A stretch of 64,000 bases of DNA from the NCBI GenBank assembly GCA_017633615.1, contig JAGBPB010000090.1:1-64000 (forward strand), written 5' to 3'. The position numbers and the translations under genes are program-made. Shown piece after piece: positions 51,020 through 64,000 of the stretch. The DNA comes from Bacteroidaceae bacterium (lineage in GTDB: Bacteria > Bacteroidota > Bacteroidia > Bacteroidales > Bacteroidaceae). The notes beneath the pieces are model-generated. The model did not search any database and was not told the origin of the DNA. It saw nothing but the letters and a program-made list of their open reading frames with translations. The first letter of the stretch is position 1. Every line of letters begins with the position of its first letter.

Positions 51020-51022
51020 GCA

Positions 51023-51203
51023 GAACTTAAGGTATAGGGTATCAAAAACCGTCGCCACCCTCGGCGCGTCAGAGGGAGGGGCCCGTGCTCAAGAAGATGC
51101 TGTGGGAGATGGGAACTTGTTCACGTCTTCCACAGCGTCTTATTGGGGATGGGAGGGATAGGGCCGTAGGCCCGTAGTTTTGGATACCCTATACCTTAAG
51201 TTC
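51023..51203. repeat. 181-bp inverted-repeat element (possible MITE or folded RNA)
   Basis: Perfect 21-bp terminal inverted repeats (51023-51043 and 51183-51203, core AACTTAAGGTATAGGGTATC) enclose a GC-rich centre. A nested 12-bp repeat, AAGATGCTGTGG with CCACAGCGTCTT (51094-51105 and 51130-51141, one G-T-type difference), lies inside. No reading frame of note is present and no clear target duplication flanks it. It fills the space between the helicase and the thrA promoter. Confidence 0.85.
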
Positions 51204-51239
51204 TCTCTCTAATATGCAGATAAAATAATATAAAAAGAG

Positions 51240-56924: not shown

Positions 56925-56950
56925 CACAGGGAAACGACCCTTTTGTGTCA
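56922..56950. repeat. Palindromic repeat, family B, containing both stop codons
   Basis: TGACACAGGG, AAACGA, then CCCTTTTGTGTCA form an imperfect hairpin with a TTT bulge. Its left TGA (56922-56924) is the stop of the MetH-activation gene and its right TCA (56948-56950) is the stop of the converging ABC transporter gene. The 24-base core is identical to 32932-32955. Confidence 0.85.
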
Positions 56951-58564
56951 TAATTTGAGGGTTTCATCGCAGAGGGTGGTGACGGTCTCGCGGTGGGTGA
57001 TGAAAATCATTGTTTTTTGCGGATAGGCCTTGAAGAGGCGGGTGTAGAGCTCAGTTTCAGTGGGGGCATCGAGTGATGAGCTTATCTCATCAAGGAGCAG
57101 TATGGAGCCCGGGCGCAGCAAGCCTCGGGCTATTGCTATTCTTTGGGCCTGGCCTTCACTCAGGCCTGTGCCGCGCTCGCCAAGCATGGTGTCAAGACCG
57201 TCGGGGAGTTCCTGTACAAAATCAGCACAGGCGGTATGCAACGCCCCAATGAGTTCCTGGTCCGATGCATCCGGATTGGCTACCTGCAGGTTGAAGCGGA
57301 TGGTGCCGCTCATAAGGGTGTTGCCTTGGGGCACGAATACAAAGTCGGGGCGGGTGGTGGAGCCTGCTGGCATGCTCTCATCTTTTCCATATAGGCTGAT
57401 GGTGCCGCTCTGGGGGCTGATGAAGCCTAACATGAGGCGGAACAATGTTGTCTTGCCTATGCCGGTCTCACCCATCAGTGCTGTCTTGGTGCCGGGACGG
57501 AAAACATGCGTAAAGTCTGAGAGTATCTGACGGTCGCCGCCGGCGTATTTGAAACTGACGTTGTTGAACCGGATGCCGCTTAGGGTGGGGTGCAGCGTGG
57601 ATGCATCGGACTCTGATTCAAGGCTTTCAAGTTCTATGAGACGGTCTATGCTGGCAGTAGAATGGATTACTTGAGGAACAAGGTTGAGCAGTTGCATTAC
57701 TGGGTGTTGAATTTGGCCTACCAGTTGCAGGAAAGATGTCATTATACCAAACGTTATAGCTCCGGCACGTAACTGCAGACCTCCCCAAATAAAGGCCATC
57801 AGATAACCCAGTCCGAATGCGCAACCCATGATGATGCGTATCATTATGGTAAAGCGTGTACGGCGCATTATGTTGCCCTTAAGTTGCTGCTGCATGTTGT
57901 CCAGGCGGTCAGTCATCCACTCCTCACTACCCATGGCGCGCAGCACGGCATTGTTCTCCATGCCCTCCTGCACCTGCATCTGGATTTGGCTCTCATCCTG
58001 ACGGATATCCAGTGTCATCTGGCGCAGGCGGCGGCCTATGAACTTGGCCAGGAATATGGCAAGTGGAGTCATAATGAGCAATGCCCAGGCAAGCCAGCGG
58101 TCAAAATAGCGTAGTAGCAGGAATGCTCCTATAAGCTGTATGCAAGTAATACACATCTGGGGCAGGGTATCGGTGGTGGTCTCACTTACCACTTCTATGT
58201 CCTTGGTAAGGCGGGAACTGATGTCACCGGAGTGAATCTCTTTTTCTTCATAGAGCTGGCGGCGGAACAGGCTGCTGAACATACGCAGGCGCAGCGCGTT
58301 GGTCTGGCGGATGCTTGCCTTGGTGGTGAGCAGGAAATAGACCTGACGGAGCAGTACCCCGCCTACTATGGTCAGTACAAGCCAGATGGCCATTACCGTT
58401 ACGTCATGGGCCGATCCGGTGCGGATGGTTTCATCAATGAAACGGCGGCAGAGCCATACCATCATGAGACCCATGACTACCTGTGCCGTGCCAGTTAAAA
58501 TGCGGACTGCTGTGTTCCAGCGAATGCCCTGCATGTTACGCCATATCCAGTTTGAATATTTCAC
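56948..58564 (-). CDS. ABC transporter, fused permease and ATPase
   Basis: A 538-residue half-size exporter. Six transmembrane helices lie within residues 15-310, followed by the ATPase: Walker A GETGIGKTT, Q-loop VFVPQGNTLMSG, signature LSEGQAQRIA, Walker B SILLLDEISSSLDAPT and His-loop ITHRE. It starts at GTG 58564, overlapping the stop of the PqqD-like gene (GTGA). Such exporters move lipids, drugs or peptides; the PqqD partner suggests a peptide. Confidence 0.93.
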   Translation of the reverse strand: MKYSNWIWRNMQGIRWNTAVRILTGTAQVVMGLMMVWLCRRFIDETIRTGSAHDVTVMAIWLVLTIVGGVLLRQVYFLLTTKASIRQTNALRLRMFSSLFRRQLYEEKEIHSGDISSRLTKDIEVVSETTTDTLPQMCITCIQLIGAFLLLRYFDRWLAWALLIMTPLAIFLAKFIGRRLRQMTLDIRQDESQIQMQVQEGMENNAVLRAMGSEEWMTDRLDNMQQQLKGNIMRRTRFTIMIRIIMGCAFGLGYLMAFIWGGLQLRAGAITFGIMTSFLQLVGQIQHPVMQLLNLVPQVIHSTASIDRLIELESLESESDASTLHPTLSGIRFNNVSFKYAGGDRQILSDFTHVFRPGTKTALMGETGIGKTTLFRLMLGFISPQSGTISLYGKDESMPAGSTTRPDFVFVPQGNTLMSGTIRFNLQVANPDASDQELIGALHTACADFVQELPDGLDTMLGERGTGLSEGQAQRIAIARGLLRPGSILLLDEISSSLDAPTETELYTRLFKAYPQKTMIFITHRETVTTLCDETLKL

Positions 58565-58830
58565 TCTACTACTTTAAGTTCAGTCCATTGATTTATGGTT
58601 TCCTTTACGTCGGTCAATGCCTGCTCTGGAGATACGTCATATTCATTGCACAGTGCTGTGGCAAGGCTCTGGGCGGTGAAATCTCCCTGCTCAAGGGCCT
58701 GTTTCCAGAGCCATGCGGCGGTCTCGTTGAGGCATAGCATACGGCCAAAATTGATGGCGTCAAGGCCTTCGCCTACTATTACGTTCTCTCCGCAGACGGT
58801 GCGGAGTACAAATCCTTTCTTTATCTTCAT
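58561..58830 (-). CDS. PqqD-like (RRE-fold) small protein
   Basis: An 89-residue protein of the PqqD family: KKGFVLRTVCGENVIVGEG, NFGRMLCLNETAAWLWK and VSPEQALTDVKETINQW. PqqD-like domains bind precursor peptides in RiPP pathways. Overlap with the exporter gene shows the two are made together. No precursor peptide, radical SAM enzyme or other modifying enzyme is visible beside them. Confidence 0.88.
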   Translation of the reverse strand: MKIKKGFVLRTVCGENVIVGEGLDAINFGRMLCLNETAAWLWKQALEQGDFTAQSLATALCNEYDVSPEQALTDVKETINQWTELKVVE

Positions 58831-58873: not shown

Positions 58874-58881
58874 TACCTTTG
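58874..58881 (+). promoter_or_regulatory. -7 box for the leu leader
   Basis: TACCTTTGC matches TAnnTTTG and lies 29 bp before the leader-peptide ATG. Confidence 0.65.
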
Positions 58882-58910
58882 CACACACAAAAGAAGAAAC
58901 AAGAGAATTT

Positions 58911-58979
58911 ATGCGACTGCAAGGCTTGATTATTCTATCAATTATTATCATTCCGGAGAGCCGGTGTGAGAAAGCCTGA
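58911..58979 (+). CDS. leuL: leu operon leader peptide (22 codons, Ile/Leu-rich)
   Basis: The short frame ATG 58911 to TGA 58977-58979 encodes MRLQGLIILSIIIIPESRCE followed by KA. Six of 22 codons are Ile and three are Leu, concentrated in codons 6-14. An AAGAGAA purine-rich site precedes the ATG. The frame ends inside the first arm of the antiterminator (58965-58974), so ribosome position can decide folding. This is the classical design of an amino-acid attenuation leader. Confidence 0.85.
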   Translation: MRLQGLIILSIIIIPESRCEKA

Positions 58980-59037
58980 CGCATATATGTAAATAGAGTA
59001 CAGATAATAAACAATACGCGATAAAGCCTTTCTCACA
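58965..59037 (+). promoter_or_regulatory. Antiterminator hairpin of the leu attenuator
   Basis: TGTGAGAAAG (58965-58974, last codons of the leader peptide) is a perfect 10-bp complement of CTTTCTCACA (59028-59037). The second segment is also the 5' arm of the terminator, so this pairing prevents termination. Confidence 0.85.
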
Positions 59038-59058
59038 GTGAGTGAGAGAGGCTTTTTT
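59023..59058 (+). terminator. leu attenuator terminator
   Basis: A 14-bp stem with one G-T pair (59023-59036 with 59042-59055), loop AGTGA, and a run of six T (59053-59058). It lies between the leader peptide and leuA. Confidence 0.92.
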
Positions 59059-59088: not shown

Positions 59089-60615
59089 ATGTCAGACAGG
59101 ATCATTTTCTTTGACACTACACTCCGGGACGGCGAACAGGTCCCGGGATGCCAGTTGAACACAATCGAGAAGATTGAGGTGGCTCGCCAATTGGAGCAGC
59201 TGGGCGTGGATGTGATTGAGGCGGGATTCCCGGTAAGCAGTCCGGGTGATTTCAACTCAGTAGTTGAGATTTCAAAAGCGGTATCGAACCCCATTATCTG
59301 TGCCCTGACCCGTGCGGTAGAGGCCGATATAGATGCAGCCGCTGCAGCCCTACAGTACGCCAAGCTAAAGCGAATCCACACCGGAATAGGCACCAGCGAT
59401 GAGCACATTAGGTATAAGTTCAACAGCACACGCAGTGAGATCCTGGAGCGTGCGGCAGCAGCTGTAAAGTATGCAGCGTCCAAGCGCTGTGAAGTGGAGT
59501 TCTACGCCGAGGATGCCGGCCGTACTGACAATGAATATCTGGCACGCGTGGCCGAGGCCGCAATTAAGGCCGGCGCCACAATTATAAATATACCAGATAC
59601 CACCGGATACTGCCTGCCCGATGAATTCGGAGCCAAGATAAAGTATCTGATGGAGCACGTTGACGGACTGGCCAACGGAAAGGCAATCCTGTCAACCCAC
59701 TGCCACAACGACTTGGGTATGGCAACCGCCAATACCATGAGCGGAATCCTGAATGGAGCCCGCCAGGTTGAGGTAACCATAAACGGAGTGGGCGAGAGAG
59801 CTGGAAACACATCACTTGAGGAGATTGCAATGATACTCAAGTGTCATCATAACCTGCCGTATGAGTGCGGAATCAACACTCAGCGAATAACCGCCGCCAG
59901 CCGTCTGGTATCATCACTCATGAGCATGCCGGTGCAGTTCAACAAGGCCATTGTGGGTAGGAACGCGTTTGCACACTCCAGCGGAATACACCAGGACGGA
60001 GTGCTCAAGAACACAAGAACCTATGAAATAATAAATCCGGAGGATATAGGCTTGTCACAAAGTGATATTGTGCTGACTGCCCGTTCCGGTAGGGCCGCCT
60101 TGAAGCATCGGCTCACTGAACTTGGCGTTGAGTTGAAAGGCGATAAACTGGACCGTGTATATGAACAGTTCCTCAAGTTGGCTGACAAGAAGAGGGAACT
60201 GACCAATGATGATGTCCTGATGTTGGCCGGAGCTGATTTGGCTCTGAACAAAAAGGTGCGCCTTGAAAGCCTTCAGGTACTTGCAGGTAAGGGGTCTACA
60301 CCATACGCTAAGATCCGCCTTATGGTCGATAAGGAGAGTTTTGAGGCTGAATCGGCCGGCAACGGGCCGCTTGATGCATCAATCAAGGCACTCAAGAAGA
60401 TAATCAAACGCACAATGACACTTAAGGAGATGACAATCCAGGCTATTTCAAAAGGGTCTGATGACGTTGGTAAGGTGCATATGCAGGTGGAGACAGACGG
60501 TCATCTCTATTACGGATTCGGGTCCGATACCGATATCGTTACCGCCAGTGTGGAGGCGTATATAGATTGCATAAACAAATTCAGACCGGAGAACGATGGG
60601 CAAGACGCTGTTTGA
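59089..60615 (+). CDS. leuA: 2-isopropylmalate synthase
   Basis: A 508-residue enzyme condensing acetyl-CoA with 2-ketoisovalerate, the first step of leucine synthesis. [15 protein letters not shown], the metal motif [12 protein letters not shown] and [15 protein letters not shown] are in the catalytic barrel. Residues from about 390 form the LeuA allosteric domain ([20 protein letters not shown]), so leucine feedback is expected. It follows the attenuator and overlaps leuC by 20 bp. Confidence 0.96.
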
Positions 60616-61990
60616 CAAGATTTGGGATGCGCATGTAGTGCAAGCCGTTCCCGACGGTCCTACGCAGTTGTACATAGACCGTCTGTACTGCCACGAGGTT
60701 ACAACCCCGCAGGCGTTTGACACCATCCGTGAAAAGGGTTGCGGCGTGTTTCGCCCTGAGCGTGTGGTTGCCATGCCTGACCATAATACGCAGTCTGACT
60801 GCAAGGACAGGATTGATGATCCCGTGGGCCGCAAGCAGGTTGAGACACTTGAGCAGAACTGCCGTGAGTTTGGAATAAGGTACTTTGGTCTGGGCAGTCC
60901 CGATAACGGAATCATCCATGTGGTGGGTCCCGAGAAGGGCCTTTCACTGCCGGGCATGACAATTGTTTGCGGCGATTCGCATACATCAACCCACGGTGCA
61001 ATAGGTGCAATCGCAATGGGTATAGGCACATCTGAGGTCGCTCAGGTACTGGCATCACAGTGCATCCTGCAGCGCAAGCCCAAGACCATGCGCATAAATA
61101 TTGAGGGTGAACTGAGTGAGGGCGTGACCGCAAAGGATGTGGCGCTCTATATCATGGCGCAGATGACCACATCGGGTGCGACAGGATATGCGGTGGAGTA
61201 TGCCGGCCAGGTTGTTCGCAACATGAGTATGGAGGGACGTTTGACATTGTCCAATCTCTCTATTGAAATGGGCAGCCGCGCAGGTCTGATTGCCCCTGAC
61301 GCCACCACATTCGAATGGCTGCAGGGCAGAGAGTATGCACCCAAGGGTGCCGATTGGGATGTCGCAGTGCGCCAGTGGAGCCAACTACGCAGCGATGATG
61401 ACGCCGTATTTGACAAGCAGGTTACATATTATGCCGATGACATAGCACCGCGTATTACCTACGGAACCAATCCGGGGGCGGGTATTGCGGTGGACGGAAC
61501 AATTCCTGCATACGAATCTGTATCGGAGCAGGAGCGTGAGCAGTTGAAAGTCCAGTTGGACTATATGCAGTTCAAGCCCGGACAGAAACTGGAGGGAACG
61601 CCTGTGGACTGGTGTTTCCTGGGCGCCTGCACCAACGGCCGAATTGAGGATTTCCGCGCTTTTGCAAGCGTGGTTCAGGGCCGACGCAAGGCTCCAGGCG
61701 TGACAGCATGGCTGGTTCCGGGATCATGGGCCGTGCGTAAGCAAATTATTGAAGAGGGTATAGACAAGGTGTTTGAGGAGGCCGGTTTTGAACTGCGAAT
61801 GCCTTCATGCTCGGCCTGCCTGGCTATGAACCCCGATAAGGTTCCGGCAGGGAAGCTCTGCATATCGACCTCTAATAGGAATTTTGTGGGCCGTCAGGGA
61901 CCCGGCGCCAGAACGGTGCTGGCCAGCCCGCTGACTGTTGCTGCAAGCGCCGTGACAGGTGTTATAACTGACCCTCGTAAACTCTTGTGA
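60596..61990 (+). CDS. leuC: 3-isopropylmalate dehydratase large subunit
   Basis: A 464-residue aconitase-type Fe-S enzyme. [13 protein letters not shown] starts the protein. [33 protein letters not shown] and [10 protein letters not shown] carry the cluster cysteines. With LeuD it isomerises 2- to 3-isopropylmalate, and such pairs can also isomerise citramalate. The start lies inside leuA, and the leuD fusion begins 2 bp after its stop. Confidence 0.96.
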
Positions 61991-61992
61991 CT

Positions 61993-64000
61993 ATGGAAAA
62001 GAAAATGAGCATAGTGGAATCAACCTGCATTCCAATCAATATAGACAACTGTAACACGGACCTTATCATACCGGCCCGATACATGTCGGCCACCACCCGT
62101 GACCTGGCATACTTTGGCGATGCATTCATGCATGACTTAAAGTTTGAGGCCGATGGCACTCCCAAGAGTGACTTTGTGCTGAACCGCCCCGAGTACAGCG
62201 AGCGCCCTCACAAGGGCTGCCATGAGATTGTCGTGGCAGGCACCAACTGGGGATCGGGCTCAAGCCGCGAGCATGCCGCATGGGCTATTGCGGGATACGG
62301 CATCAGGGTGGTTATATCGGACCGTTTTGCCGATATCCATCGCGGAAATCTGCTTAACTGCTTTGTGCTACCGGTTACCGTGAGCACCAAGTTCCGTGAC
62401 GAGCTGCTGGCAAGCATAAAGAAGGATGCGGGTACCGTTGTCAGGGTGGATCTGGAGGGTCAGACCGTGACCAATCTGGCAACCGGACACAGTGAGAAGT
62501 TTGAGATTGACGCCTACAAGAAGCACTGCCTTCTGAACGGCTTTGACGATATTGATTACCTGCTGAGCCGCAAGAGTGACATCGAGGCTTATGAGGGCAG
62601 GGCCATTCGCGGTCGCTACATTGAGATTCTGGATACCACGCTGCGTGACGGTGAGCAGACATCGGGCGTAAGTTTCTCCAATCAGGAGAAGCTGAGCATT
62701 GCCCAGTCGCTGCTGTCGGATTTGAATGTGGACCGCGTGGAGATAGCATCGGCCATGGTATCGGACCGCGAGCAGGAGTGTGTGCGCGGTATTGCCGAGT
62801 GGGCTCAGCGCAACGGTCTGCTGGGTCGCGTCGAGGTGCTGGGATTTGTTGACCAGAACCGCTCGGCCGACTGGATTCTTGATGCGGGATGCCGCGTTAT
62901 GAACCTGCTCTGCAAGGGCAGCCTCAAACACGTGACCGCCCAGCTAGGCAAGACTGCAGCAGAACATATCAAGGATATTCAAAGCACCGTTGAGTACGCT
63001 GTGAGCCGCGGAATGGAGGTGAATGTCTATCTTGAGGACTGGAGCAACGGAATGAAGCGTTCTCCCAAGTATGTGTTTGATTTGATGGATGCTCTGACCA
63101 GGATGCCTGTCAAGCGCGTGATGCTGCCCGATACATTGGGCATTCTGAATCCCGACACCACTCTGGAGTACTGCCGCCGCATGGTGGAGCGTTATCCGGC
63201 CATACATTTTGATTTCCATGCACATAATGACTATGACCTGGCTGTGGCCAATGTCTATGCGGCTGTGAAGGCCGGCGTGAAGGGTCTGCATGTGACAGTG
63301 AACGGGCTGGGCGAGAGGGCCGGAAATGCGCCGCTGGGCAGTGTGATGGCTGTGCTTAAGGACCAGATAGGTGTTGAGACGGGTCTTAATGAGAACCGCC
63401 TGTTCAAGGTTAGCCGTAAGGTTGAGATGGACAGCGGCATTCATATTCCGCACAATATGCCGGTTGTGGGTGAATTCGTGTTTACCCAGTGTGCAGGCGT
63501 TCATGCCGATGGTGACAAGAAGGATAACCTTTACTATAATGCGCTGCTGCCGGAGCGTTTCGGCCGTGTGCGTGAATATGCGCTGGGCAAGAACAGTGGC
63601 AAGGCCAATATCCAGATGAACCTTATGGCTATGGGTATTGAACTTGATGAGGAGTCAATGCGCAAGGTTACCGACAGGATCATTGAACTTGGTGTCAAGA
63701 AGGAGCAGGTTACTCAGGATGACCTGCCGTACATTGTGCATGATGTGCTGCACCACGAACAGGAGGAGCAGAGAATCCGCATACTGAACTATTCGCTCAG
63801 TCTGACGCAGGGTCTGCGCCCGCAGGCAACCGTCAAGATTGAGATTGACGGCAAGGCATACCAGGAGGCTGCCACCGGTGACGGTCAGTACGATGCGTTT
63901 GTTCGTGCGCTGCGCAAGATATACGCCAGCCTGGACAAACCCTTCCCGGTCCTGACCAACTATACGGTATCAATCCCGCCCGGAGGCCGTACCGATGCCT
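61993..64000 (+). CDS. leuD: LeuD fused to an isopropylmalate/citramalate synthase-like enzyme (cut by window edge)
   Basis: One open frame runs from ATG 61993 to the window end (669 codons, no stop). Residues 1 to about 205 are the LeuD small subunit: NIDNCNTDLIIPARYM, GTNWGSGSSREHAAWA. Without a stop or a new Met the frame passes into a second domain from about 210: [35 protein letters not shown] (HxHND metal site), NGLGERAGN and an LeuA-type regulatory region near the end. In related genomes, as I recall, leuD and this second synthase are separate adjacent genes. The synthase may be isopropylmalate- or citramalate-forming. An alternative start is ATG 62005. Confidence 0.9.
   Translation, partial: MEKKMSIVESTCIPINIDNCNTDLIIPARYMSATTRDLAYFGDAFMHDLKFEADGTPKSDFVLNRPEYSERPHKGCHEIVVAGTNWGSGSSREHAAWAIAGYGIRVVISDRFADIHRGNLLNCFVLPVTVSTKFRDELLASIKKDAGTVVRVDLEGQTVTNLATGHSEKFEIDAYKKHCLLNGFDDIDYLLSRKSDIEAYEGRAIRGRYIEILDTTLRDGEQTSGVSFSNQEKLSIAQSLLSDLNVDRVEIASAMVSDREQECVRGIAEWAQRNGLLGRVEVLGFVDQNRSADWILDAGCRVMNLLCKGSLKHVTAQLGKTAAEHIKDIQSTVEYAVSRGMEVNVYLEDWSNGMKRSPKYVFDLMDALTRMPVKRVMLPDTLGILNPDTTLEYCRRMVERYPAIHFDFHAHNDYDLAVANVYAAVKAGVKGLHVTVNGLGERAGNAPLGSVMAVLKDQIGVETGLNENRLFKVSRKVEMDSGIHIPHNMPVVGEFVFTQCAGVHADGDKKDNLYYNALLPERFGRVREYALGKNSGKANIQMNLMAMGIELDEESMRKVTDRIIELGVKKEQVTQDDLPYIVHDVLHHEQEEQRIRILNYSLSLTQGLRPQATVKIEIDGKAYQEAATGDGQYDAFVRALRKIYASLDKPFPVLTNYTVSIPPGGRTDA

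Follow-up and report, generated by a model that had tools for sequence, protein, structure and literature searches.

Ribosome-mediated attenuation is a classical mechanism of transcriptional control. In the enterobacterial leu, ilvGMEDA and ilvBN leaders, a leader gene with control codons is combined with a terminator and an antiterminator that share a strand, leucine is encoded by rare CTA codons, and the code is matched to the operon. We find these same features upstream of leuA in a 64,000-nt stretch of DNA from a Bacteroidaceae bacterium (assembly GCA_017633615.1, contig JAGBPB010000090.1, positions 1 to 64,000, forward strand; hereafter the window). The element, at 58911-59058, is very probably, at roughly 93%, a ribosome-mediated transcription attenuator of the classical type that controls a leuA-leuC-leuD-cimA operon. 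It differs from its enterobacterial counterparts in that it matches no Rfam leader family at gathering score, is preceded by a Bacteroidota promoter box, and mixes Ile and Leu codons ahead of a leuA operon that also holds a cimA-like gene.

Vitreschak and colleagues (2004) reportedly predicted attenuators in some Bacteroidetes/Chlorobi, and these may already include leu or ilv. Bacteroid-trp RNA, presumably a Trp leader, belongs to the same phylum as the window, which gives no match to it. Bacteroid-trp (Rfam RF01692) is a candidate cis-regulatory RNA of Bacteroidetes (PMC2864571); the Flavobacterium psychrophilum transcriptome holds leader-peptide clues before amino-acid operons, with several elements lacking Rfam hits (PMC9723704); and small open reading frames of B. 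thetaiotaomicron are called 'reminiscent of leader peptides' (PMC7366714). The F. psychrophilum candidates share with the window the phylum, the proposed mechanism and the link to amino-acid operons; the conserved elements named include pheA and hisG, and the main text, under leucine and branched, yields nothing about a leu/ilv leader (PMC9723704). Actinobacterial ilvB leaders and the LEU element of leuA likewise contain runs of Ile/Val/Leu or Leu in their leader peptides, and the window differs from them in its terminator/antiterminator pair (PMC1262725). Attenuation of a leu/ile operon in Bacteroidota had been called little documented in the original prediction. This stands insofar as none of the literature matches listed, with subscription journals mostly outside their scope, describes this Bacteroidota leu/ilv leader family, and it is qualified by three partial precedents for attenuation in the phylum.

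Leader gene, terminator and antiterminator upstream of leuA

Promoter box, leader and both hairpins lie within the 258 bases that separate leuA from a divergent PqqD-domain gene (Table 1). The motif of the box is the one that we take to be the -7 box of the phylum. Ile and Leu account for 9 of the 22 leader codons (6 Ile and 3 Leu), strand 2 (TGTGAGAAAG) and 59028-59037 are exact reverse complements of each other, and an intrinsic terminator is located between the leader gene and leuA. The antiterminator shares one strand with this terminator and takes its other strand from the leader gene end. The terminator stem (59023-59036 with 59042-59055) has 14 pairs, including one G-U, and a loop of 5. 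The 22-codon leader with its 6 Ile and 3 Leu codons and the perfect 10-bp antiterminator, both claimed in the original prediction, were recovered on re-reading with the same coordinates, composition and complementarity. Of the 14-bp terminator followed by T6, the stem stood, whereas T6 did not stand as a separate tail: its first three T lie in the stem, and the terminator can be counted as 14 bp plus T3 or as 11 bp plus T6.

Table 1 Features of the leader region and genes of the downstream operon (window coordinates)
Feature	Position	Strand	Details
-7 promoter box, Bacteroidota type	58874..58881	+	TACCTTTG (TAnnTTTG), read in sequence
Putative protector hairpin, strand 1	58910..58927	+	predicted fold of transcript to 59000
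Leader peptide gene	58911..58979	+	22 codons, MRLQGLIILSIIIIPESRCEKA; ATG 58911, TGA 58977-58979
Control codon block	58929..58952	+	codons 7-14, Ile-Ile-Leu-Ser-Ile-Ile-Ile-Ile
Strand 2, antiterminator 5' arm	58965..58974	+	within leader gene end; perfect 10-bp match to 59028-59037
Strand 3	59023..59037	+	terminator 5' arm 59023-59036, antiterminator 3' arm 59028-59037
Strand 4	59042..59058	+	terminator 3' arm 59042-59055, T-run 59053-59058
leuA, 2-isopropylmalate synthase	59089..60615	+	TIGR00973 633.3 bits, cut-off 598.7
leuC, 3-isopropylmalate dehydratase large subunit	60596..61990	+	TIGR00170 600.1 bits, cut-off 560.25
leuD-cimA fusion	61987..63999	+	runs off window; LeuD residues 5-205, citramalate-synthase-like residues 212-671

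In the proposed mechanism, transcription would start directly upstream of the leader gene. When charged Ile- and Leu-tRNA are sufficient, the ribosome would reach the stop codon and cover strand 2, the terminator (59023-59055) would form, and transcription would end before leuA. When Ile or Leu is short, the ribosome would stall in the Ile/Leu block and leave strand 2 free; the latter would pair with 59028-59037, block the terminator and let RNA polymerase enter leuA. In transcripts that are not translated, strand 2 probably folds back onto the leader start, so termination would be the default. The putative protector is predicted to pair 58910-58915, in the start-codon region, with 58980-58985, and 58922-58927 with 58972-58977. 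Frame, pairings, conservation, terminator covariation, geometry and the match of code to operon were computed here; we infer where transcription starts, that the leader is translated and its ribosome stalls, and that amino-acid supply regulates the operon. The stall-or-stop reading of the original prediction is thereby supported in silico, through the conserved frame, codons and pairings and a fitting spacing.

Folding and chance tests were carried out on the window. The leader RNA has a fold z-score of -4.7, and none of 200 shuffled sequences was as stable. Cut ahead of the terminator 3' arm, it takes the antiterminator fold, with a whole-fold z of -1.5 that is not unusually stable; cut ahead of strand 3, it pairs the leader end with the leader start (z = -1.6). 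A composite scan of both strands for stems of >=10 pairs with an upstream exact copy of an arm of >=8 bases returned 58911-59058 as the sole match in the 64 kb.

Conservation, covariation and alternative readings

Comparison with 80 leuA loci from GTDB species genomes, where at least 80 such loci are listed, showed the leader and hairpin arrangement in 55 of them besides the window. This number comprises the 54 loci from a scripted hairpin/leader search, minus two spurious ones (L011 and L019), plus three (L023, L072 and L075) that were added by a covariance model, R1, built from the window and 52 leuA loci. In the alignment, the Ile codons of the leaders are conserved and give way to CGACT or CTACT, with GGAAGTG at the leader end, and the terminator arm carries a conserved CCTTTCTCACTTCC. 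The original expectation that close relatives keep the small frame and its Ile/Leu codons was thus borne out. TAnnTTTG lies no more than 60 nt ahead of the leader ATG in 53/53 sequences (the window and 52 loci), as compared to 3.1 expected from dinucleotide shuffles. Alignment and model could seed a new RNA family.

The geometry fits the proposed mechanism as well. In the window, 12 nt separate the end of the last Ile codon from strand 2, and the stop codon ends 5 nt beyond this strand. In 50 of the 53 sequences (three were not measurable), the block's final Ile/Leu codon ends a median of 12 nt ahead of strand 2 (5-95%: 4-19), and the stop codon ends a median of 12 nt after strand 2 (-3 to 17). 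For a ribosome footprint of the usual size, strand 2 would lie immediately beyond the reach of a ribosome that stalls in the block and would be covered by a ribosome at the stop codon.

Covariation had been proposed as a test of both hairpins. For the terminator it was found: 92.3% of the alignment cells are paired, both partners have changed in 9 of the 14 pairs, and on each covariation measure 0 or 1 of 500 shuffles scored as high. Because covariation of the antiterminator on the MAFFT alignment was weak, a pairing swap test was added, in which the antiterminator pairing of 52 sequences, uncorrected for relatedness, was stronger with each sequence's own arm (-18.3 kcal/mol) than after exchange of arms (-16.1 kcal/mol; 0 of 5000 permutations). 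For the putative protector, the mean probability of the upstream pairing of strand 2 was 0.76 vs 0.44 with shuffled upstream sequence (49 sequences). In locus L052, a change in one arm is matched in the other (GGATAGTGAG with CTCACTATCC), and the pairing register is shifted in L062 and in the window's own clade. The nine sequences of this clade have an arm without the TTCC part and a TGTGAG-type leader end in place of GGAAGTG; their arm pairs at -15.8 kcal/mol with their own leaders and poorly (-10.2 kcal/mol) with the leaders of other clades.

Several observations speak against control by attenuation. The arrangement is lacking in 25 of the 80 loci, 16 of which have cimA downstream (one of these, L061, has only 127 bases upstream), and L079 is a weak member (26.9 bits) that was retained in the alignment and excluded from the swap test. 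On the fixed MAFFT columns, with nine rows out of register and a highly conserved strand, 51 of 500 shuffles reached the antiterminator covariation score and 58 of 500 the number of antiterminator pairs in which both partners changed. The leaders of the window clade pair slightly better with the arms of other clades (-16.5 kcal/mol) than with their own (-15.8 kcal/mol). The leader shows no clear excess of synonymous changes (7 vs 13 non-synonymous in one group, 1 vs 4 in the other; chance share 0.24). Finally, the complete leader RNA of the window takes the terminator fold in each state computed, including the one with the antiterminator strand free, and antitermination would therefore need kinetics.

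Three alternative explanations have to be weighed. As terminator-like sites arise by chance (3 in 2 kb, 1.7 expected), the hairpin could be merely a constitutive terminator, or give a short 5' RNA, with the small frame being incidental. We regard this as very unlikely, because leader composition tracks the operon, strand 2 is conserved inside the frame, the own pairing beats swapped ones, and the promoter box stands directly upstream of the leader in all 53 sequences. Even less credit is due to a terminator that is switched by a factor other than the ribosome, be it an RNA-binding protein, an uncharged tRNA (T-box-like) or a metabolite. Such a factor would be in line with a terminator arm, CCTTTCTCAC, that is conserved beyond pairing needs and has similar arms before other operons. 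However, no Rfam family matches the window at gathering scores, and a relaxed search gave six sub-threshold matches that we judged to be chance, with neither T-box nor riboswitch among them (relaxed scores of 18.8 bits for Phe_leader and 15 bits for Thr_leader vs cut-offs of 55). Moreover, the small frame changes its code with the operon, and six such codes are seen: Ile/Leu, Ile/Leu/Val, Phe/Tyr, Thr/Ile, Trp and Met/Cys.

Codon choice bears on the last alternative. Leu is encoded by CTA in 34% of 384 leader codons vs 2% of 2646 in leuA genes, and Ile by ATT in 76% of 443 leader codons vs 29% in leuA genes, in counts that predate the corrected leader frames of L143, L150 and L161. Conserved hydrophobic Ile/Leu runs would suit a nascent peptide that arrests its ribosome as a sensor, independently of charged tRNA, but since the peptide sequence varies, its amino-acid class follows the operon, and the CTA and ATT enrichment points to decoding instead of the chain, this idea is scarcely credible.

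Leader code and operon content

CimA makes citramalate, which LeuC, LeuD and LeuB can carry to 2-oxobutyrate, the precursor of isoleucine. The Ile codons of a ribosome-mediated attenuator make sense here because the operon also encodes a citramalate-synthase-like enzyme, and the leader code is in this way linked to the citramalate route to isoleucine. The original label, leu operon, is right for its leu part and is amended here to leucine plus isoleucine operon. Among the first 80 loci, the leader was present in 53 of 69 with cimA and in 0 of 8 without cimA within the about 7 kb shown; contig ends truncate the other three, of which two have a leader. A strict rule, with the leader found only where the operon has cimA, was refuted by leader-bearing leuA operons without cimA (L143, L149, L150 and L124/L159). 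For two genomes with such operons, G057 and G131, cimA was not found anywhere in the assembly; it is located elsewhere in the genome in G268, G053 and G165. In the last two, leuA and leuC-leuD-cimA are split, and the leuA leader MANFANIAFLNLLVLRLTKSQVRRVCRY has 5 Leu and 1 Ile, whereas the leuC-leuD-cimA leader of G053, MTMYSTIINSGIILSLRISCSE, has 2 Leu and 5 Ile. The Ile share of leuA leaders without cimA is 0.17, 0.25, 0.29 and 0.57 vs a median of 0.50 in 96 with cimA (one-sided p = 0.02 for four distinct peptides, relatedness not corrected). These comparisons suggest that Ile codons follow cimA, with counterexamples in L143, Ile-rich without cimA, and in L133 and L138, which have cimA and few or no Ile.

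Because R1 had been trained on leuA leaders only, its hits before other operons are independent support. With reference to G001, the genome of the locus nearest to the window, R1 matched in 184 of 301 genomes of the family (E <= 0.001), 90 of 393 of the order (E <= 1e-5) and 25 of 395 of the phylum (E <= 1e-5); plasmid searches added nothing. From the places listed by the family and order searches we took a selection of 120, most of them second or weaker hits; removal of five that repeated a place over a longer stretch left 115. Downstream genes were named by BLAST against the genes of the window and the fetched loci, the reference names ilvD, ilvB, ilvN, ilvC and pheA being provisional. All except two of the 115 places lead into branched-chain genes, the others into pheA and onto a contig edge. 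The gene recognised first downstream was most often ilvD (55 places; preceded at L234 by one unassigned frame) or leuA (53, including L133, where its frame began early and the script called leuC), and otherwise leuC of leuC-leuD-cimA (2), ilvB (2), cimA (1) or pheA (1).

Leader composition changed with the operon. With frames re-chosen on Ile/Leu/Val only and several loci re-classed by hand, the mean content per distinct peptide was Ile 4.68, Leu 4.14 and Val 1.03 before leuA with cimA (96 peptides), and Ile 3.90, Leu 3.19 and Val 4.31 before ilvD (42 peptides). Val was less marked in ilvD operons running on into leuA (Ile 5.12, Leu 3.25, Val 1.88; 8 peptides). The pheA leader, MKTLFNAFFYFFFYFYFIQRAEAGSRIC, has a Phe/Tyr code. 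Weak phylum-level hits (L260-L277) had a fitting leader or operon in 14 of 18 cases (ilvD 1, ilvE-like 3, ilvN 2, ThrA-like 4, TrpE-like 3, MetY-like 1; IlvE, ThrA, TrpE and MetY named from sequence); no convincing leader was seen in L270, L274, L275 and L277. The TrpE-like genes follow leaders with three or four Trp (L265, L267, L269), and the ThrA-like genes follow leaders rich in Ile and Thr (L263, L268, L272, L273).

As judged from the sequences, the leader amino acids follow operon content. We lean towards the view that ribosome-mediated attenuators form a Bacteroidota-wide network in which the code of each leader is adapted to the genes of its operon, sometimes with two complete attenuators in series. 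Its codes would be Ile/Leu (leuA-cimA), Leu-rich (leuA with cimA elsewhere), Ile-rich (split leuC-leuD-cimA), Ile/Leu/Val (ilvD), Phe/Tyr, Thr/Ile, Trp and Met/Cys (metY-like). If true, such a network would imply close transcription-translation coupling in a phylum that is reported to lack Shine-Dalgarno sites in general (PMC3155529). Attenuation needs a ribosome that keeps pace with RNA polymerase, and these leaders therefore make coupling in Bacteroidota directly testable, in addition to offering a logic, open to experiment, by which Bacteroidales would regulate the synthesis of branched-chain amino acids. Their main interest lies in the breadth, the code matched to the operon, the lack of an Rfam match and this implication for coupling.

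Eight loci (L282-L289), taken from a search of ten genomes, were examined upstream of a metY-like gene, presumably O-acetylhomoserine-sulfhydrylase-like. All eight, and also L271, have a Met/Cys-rich leader frame and a terminator-like hairpin upstream. The core MMQMCMMMC is present in 7/8, and no more than 5 of 200 shuffles equalled the pairing of leader end and terminator arm in 7/8 (91 of 200 in L289). By its sequence, this looks like a methionine/cysteine attenuator. Two complete attenuators stand in series before ilvD in G411 (L199:401-701; MKSLSLHLIQIIIRVVLSHGRERGV then MKKMNRSMYNYIIVINILLVVLQN) and before a gene that we take to be ilvE-like in G948 (reverse complement of L278), where the paired Ile leaders, MKTNSNIIIISIIIRSFE and MKTNMNIIIISIIIRSFE, are near-identical.

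Operon genes and neighbouring features

The genes leuA, leuC and leuD-cimA all point one way. NF002458 and TIGR00171 exceed their cut-offs in the leuD-cimA fusion, in which Pfam domains are also read. Its CimA part is assigned as CimA-like by similarity, since the score of 603.1 bits over residues 212-671 falls under the cut-off of 950 of the Leptospira CimA model (NF042433).

Elsewhere in the window, perfect 22-bp inverted repeats (51022-51043 and 51183-51204), of which the window has no second exact copy, flank a very stable, MITE-like palindrome (z = -9.7). The element (51022-51204) sits directly upstream of a gene that we take to be ThrA-like, and no attenuator leader was seen upstream of this thrA. 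LeuD and the CimA-like synthase form a single frame in the window, in 7 of the 80 related loci (L001, L002, L005-L008 and L039) and also in L146, L167 and L168, and are separate genes in most other relatives. Divergent from the leu operon, the small PqqD-domain protein (Pfam 49.9 bits) adjoins an ABC transporter whose membrane and ATPase domains are fused (56948-58830, minus strand); the two could be a modified-peptide export pair.
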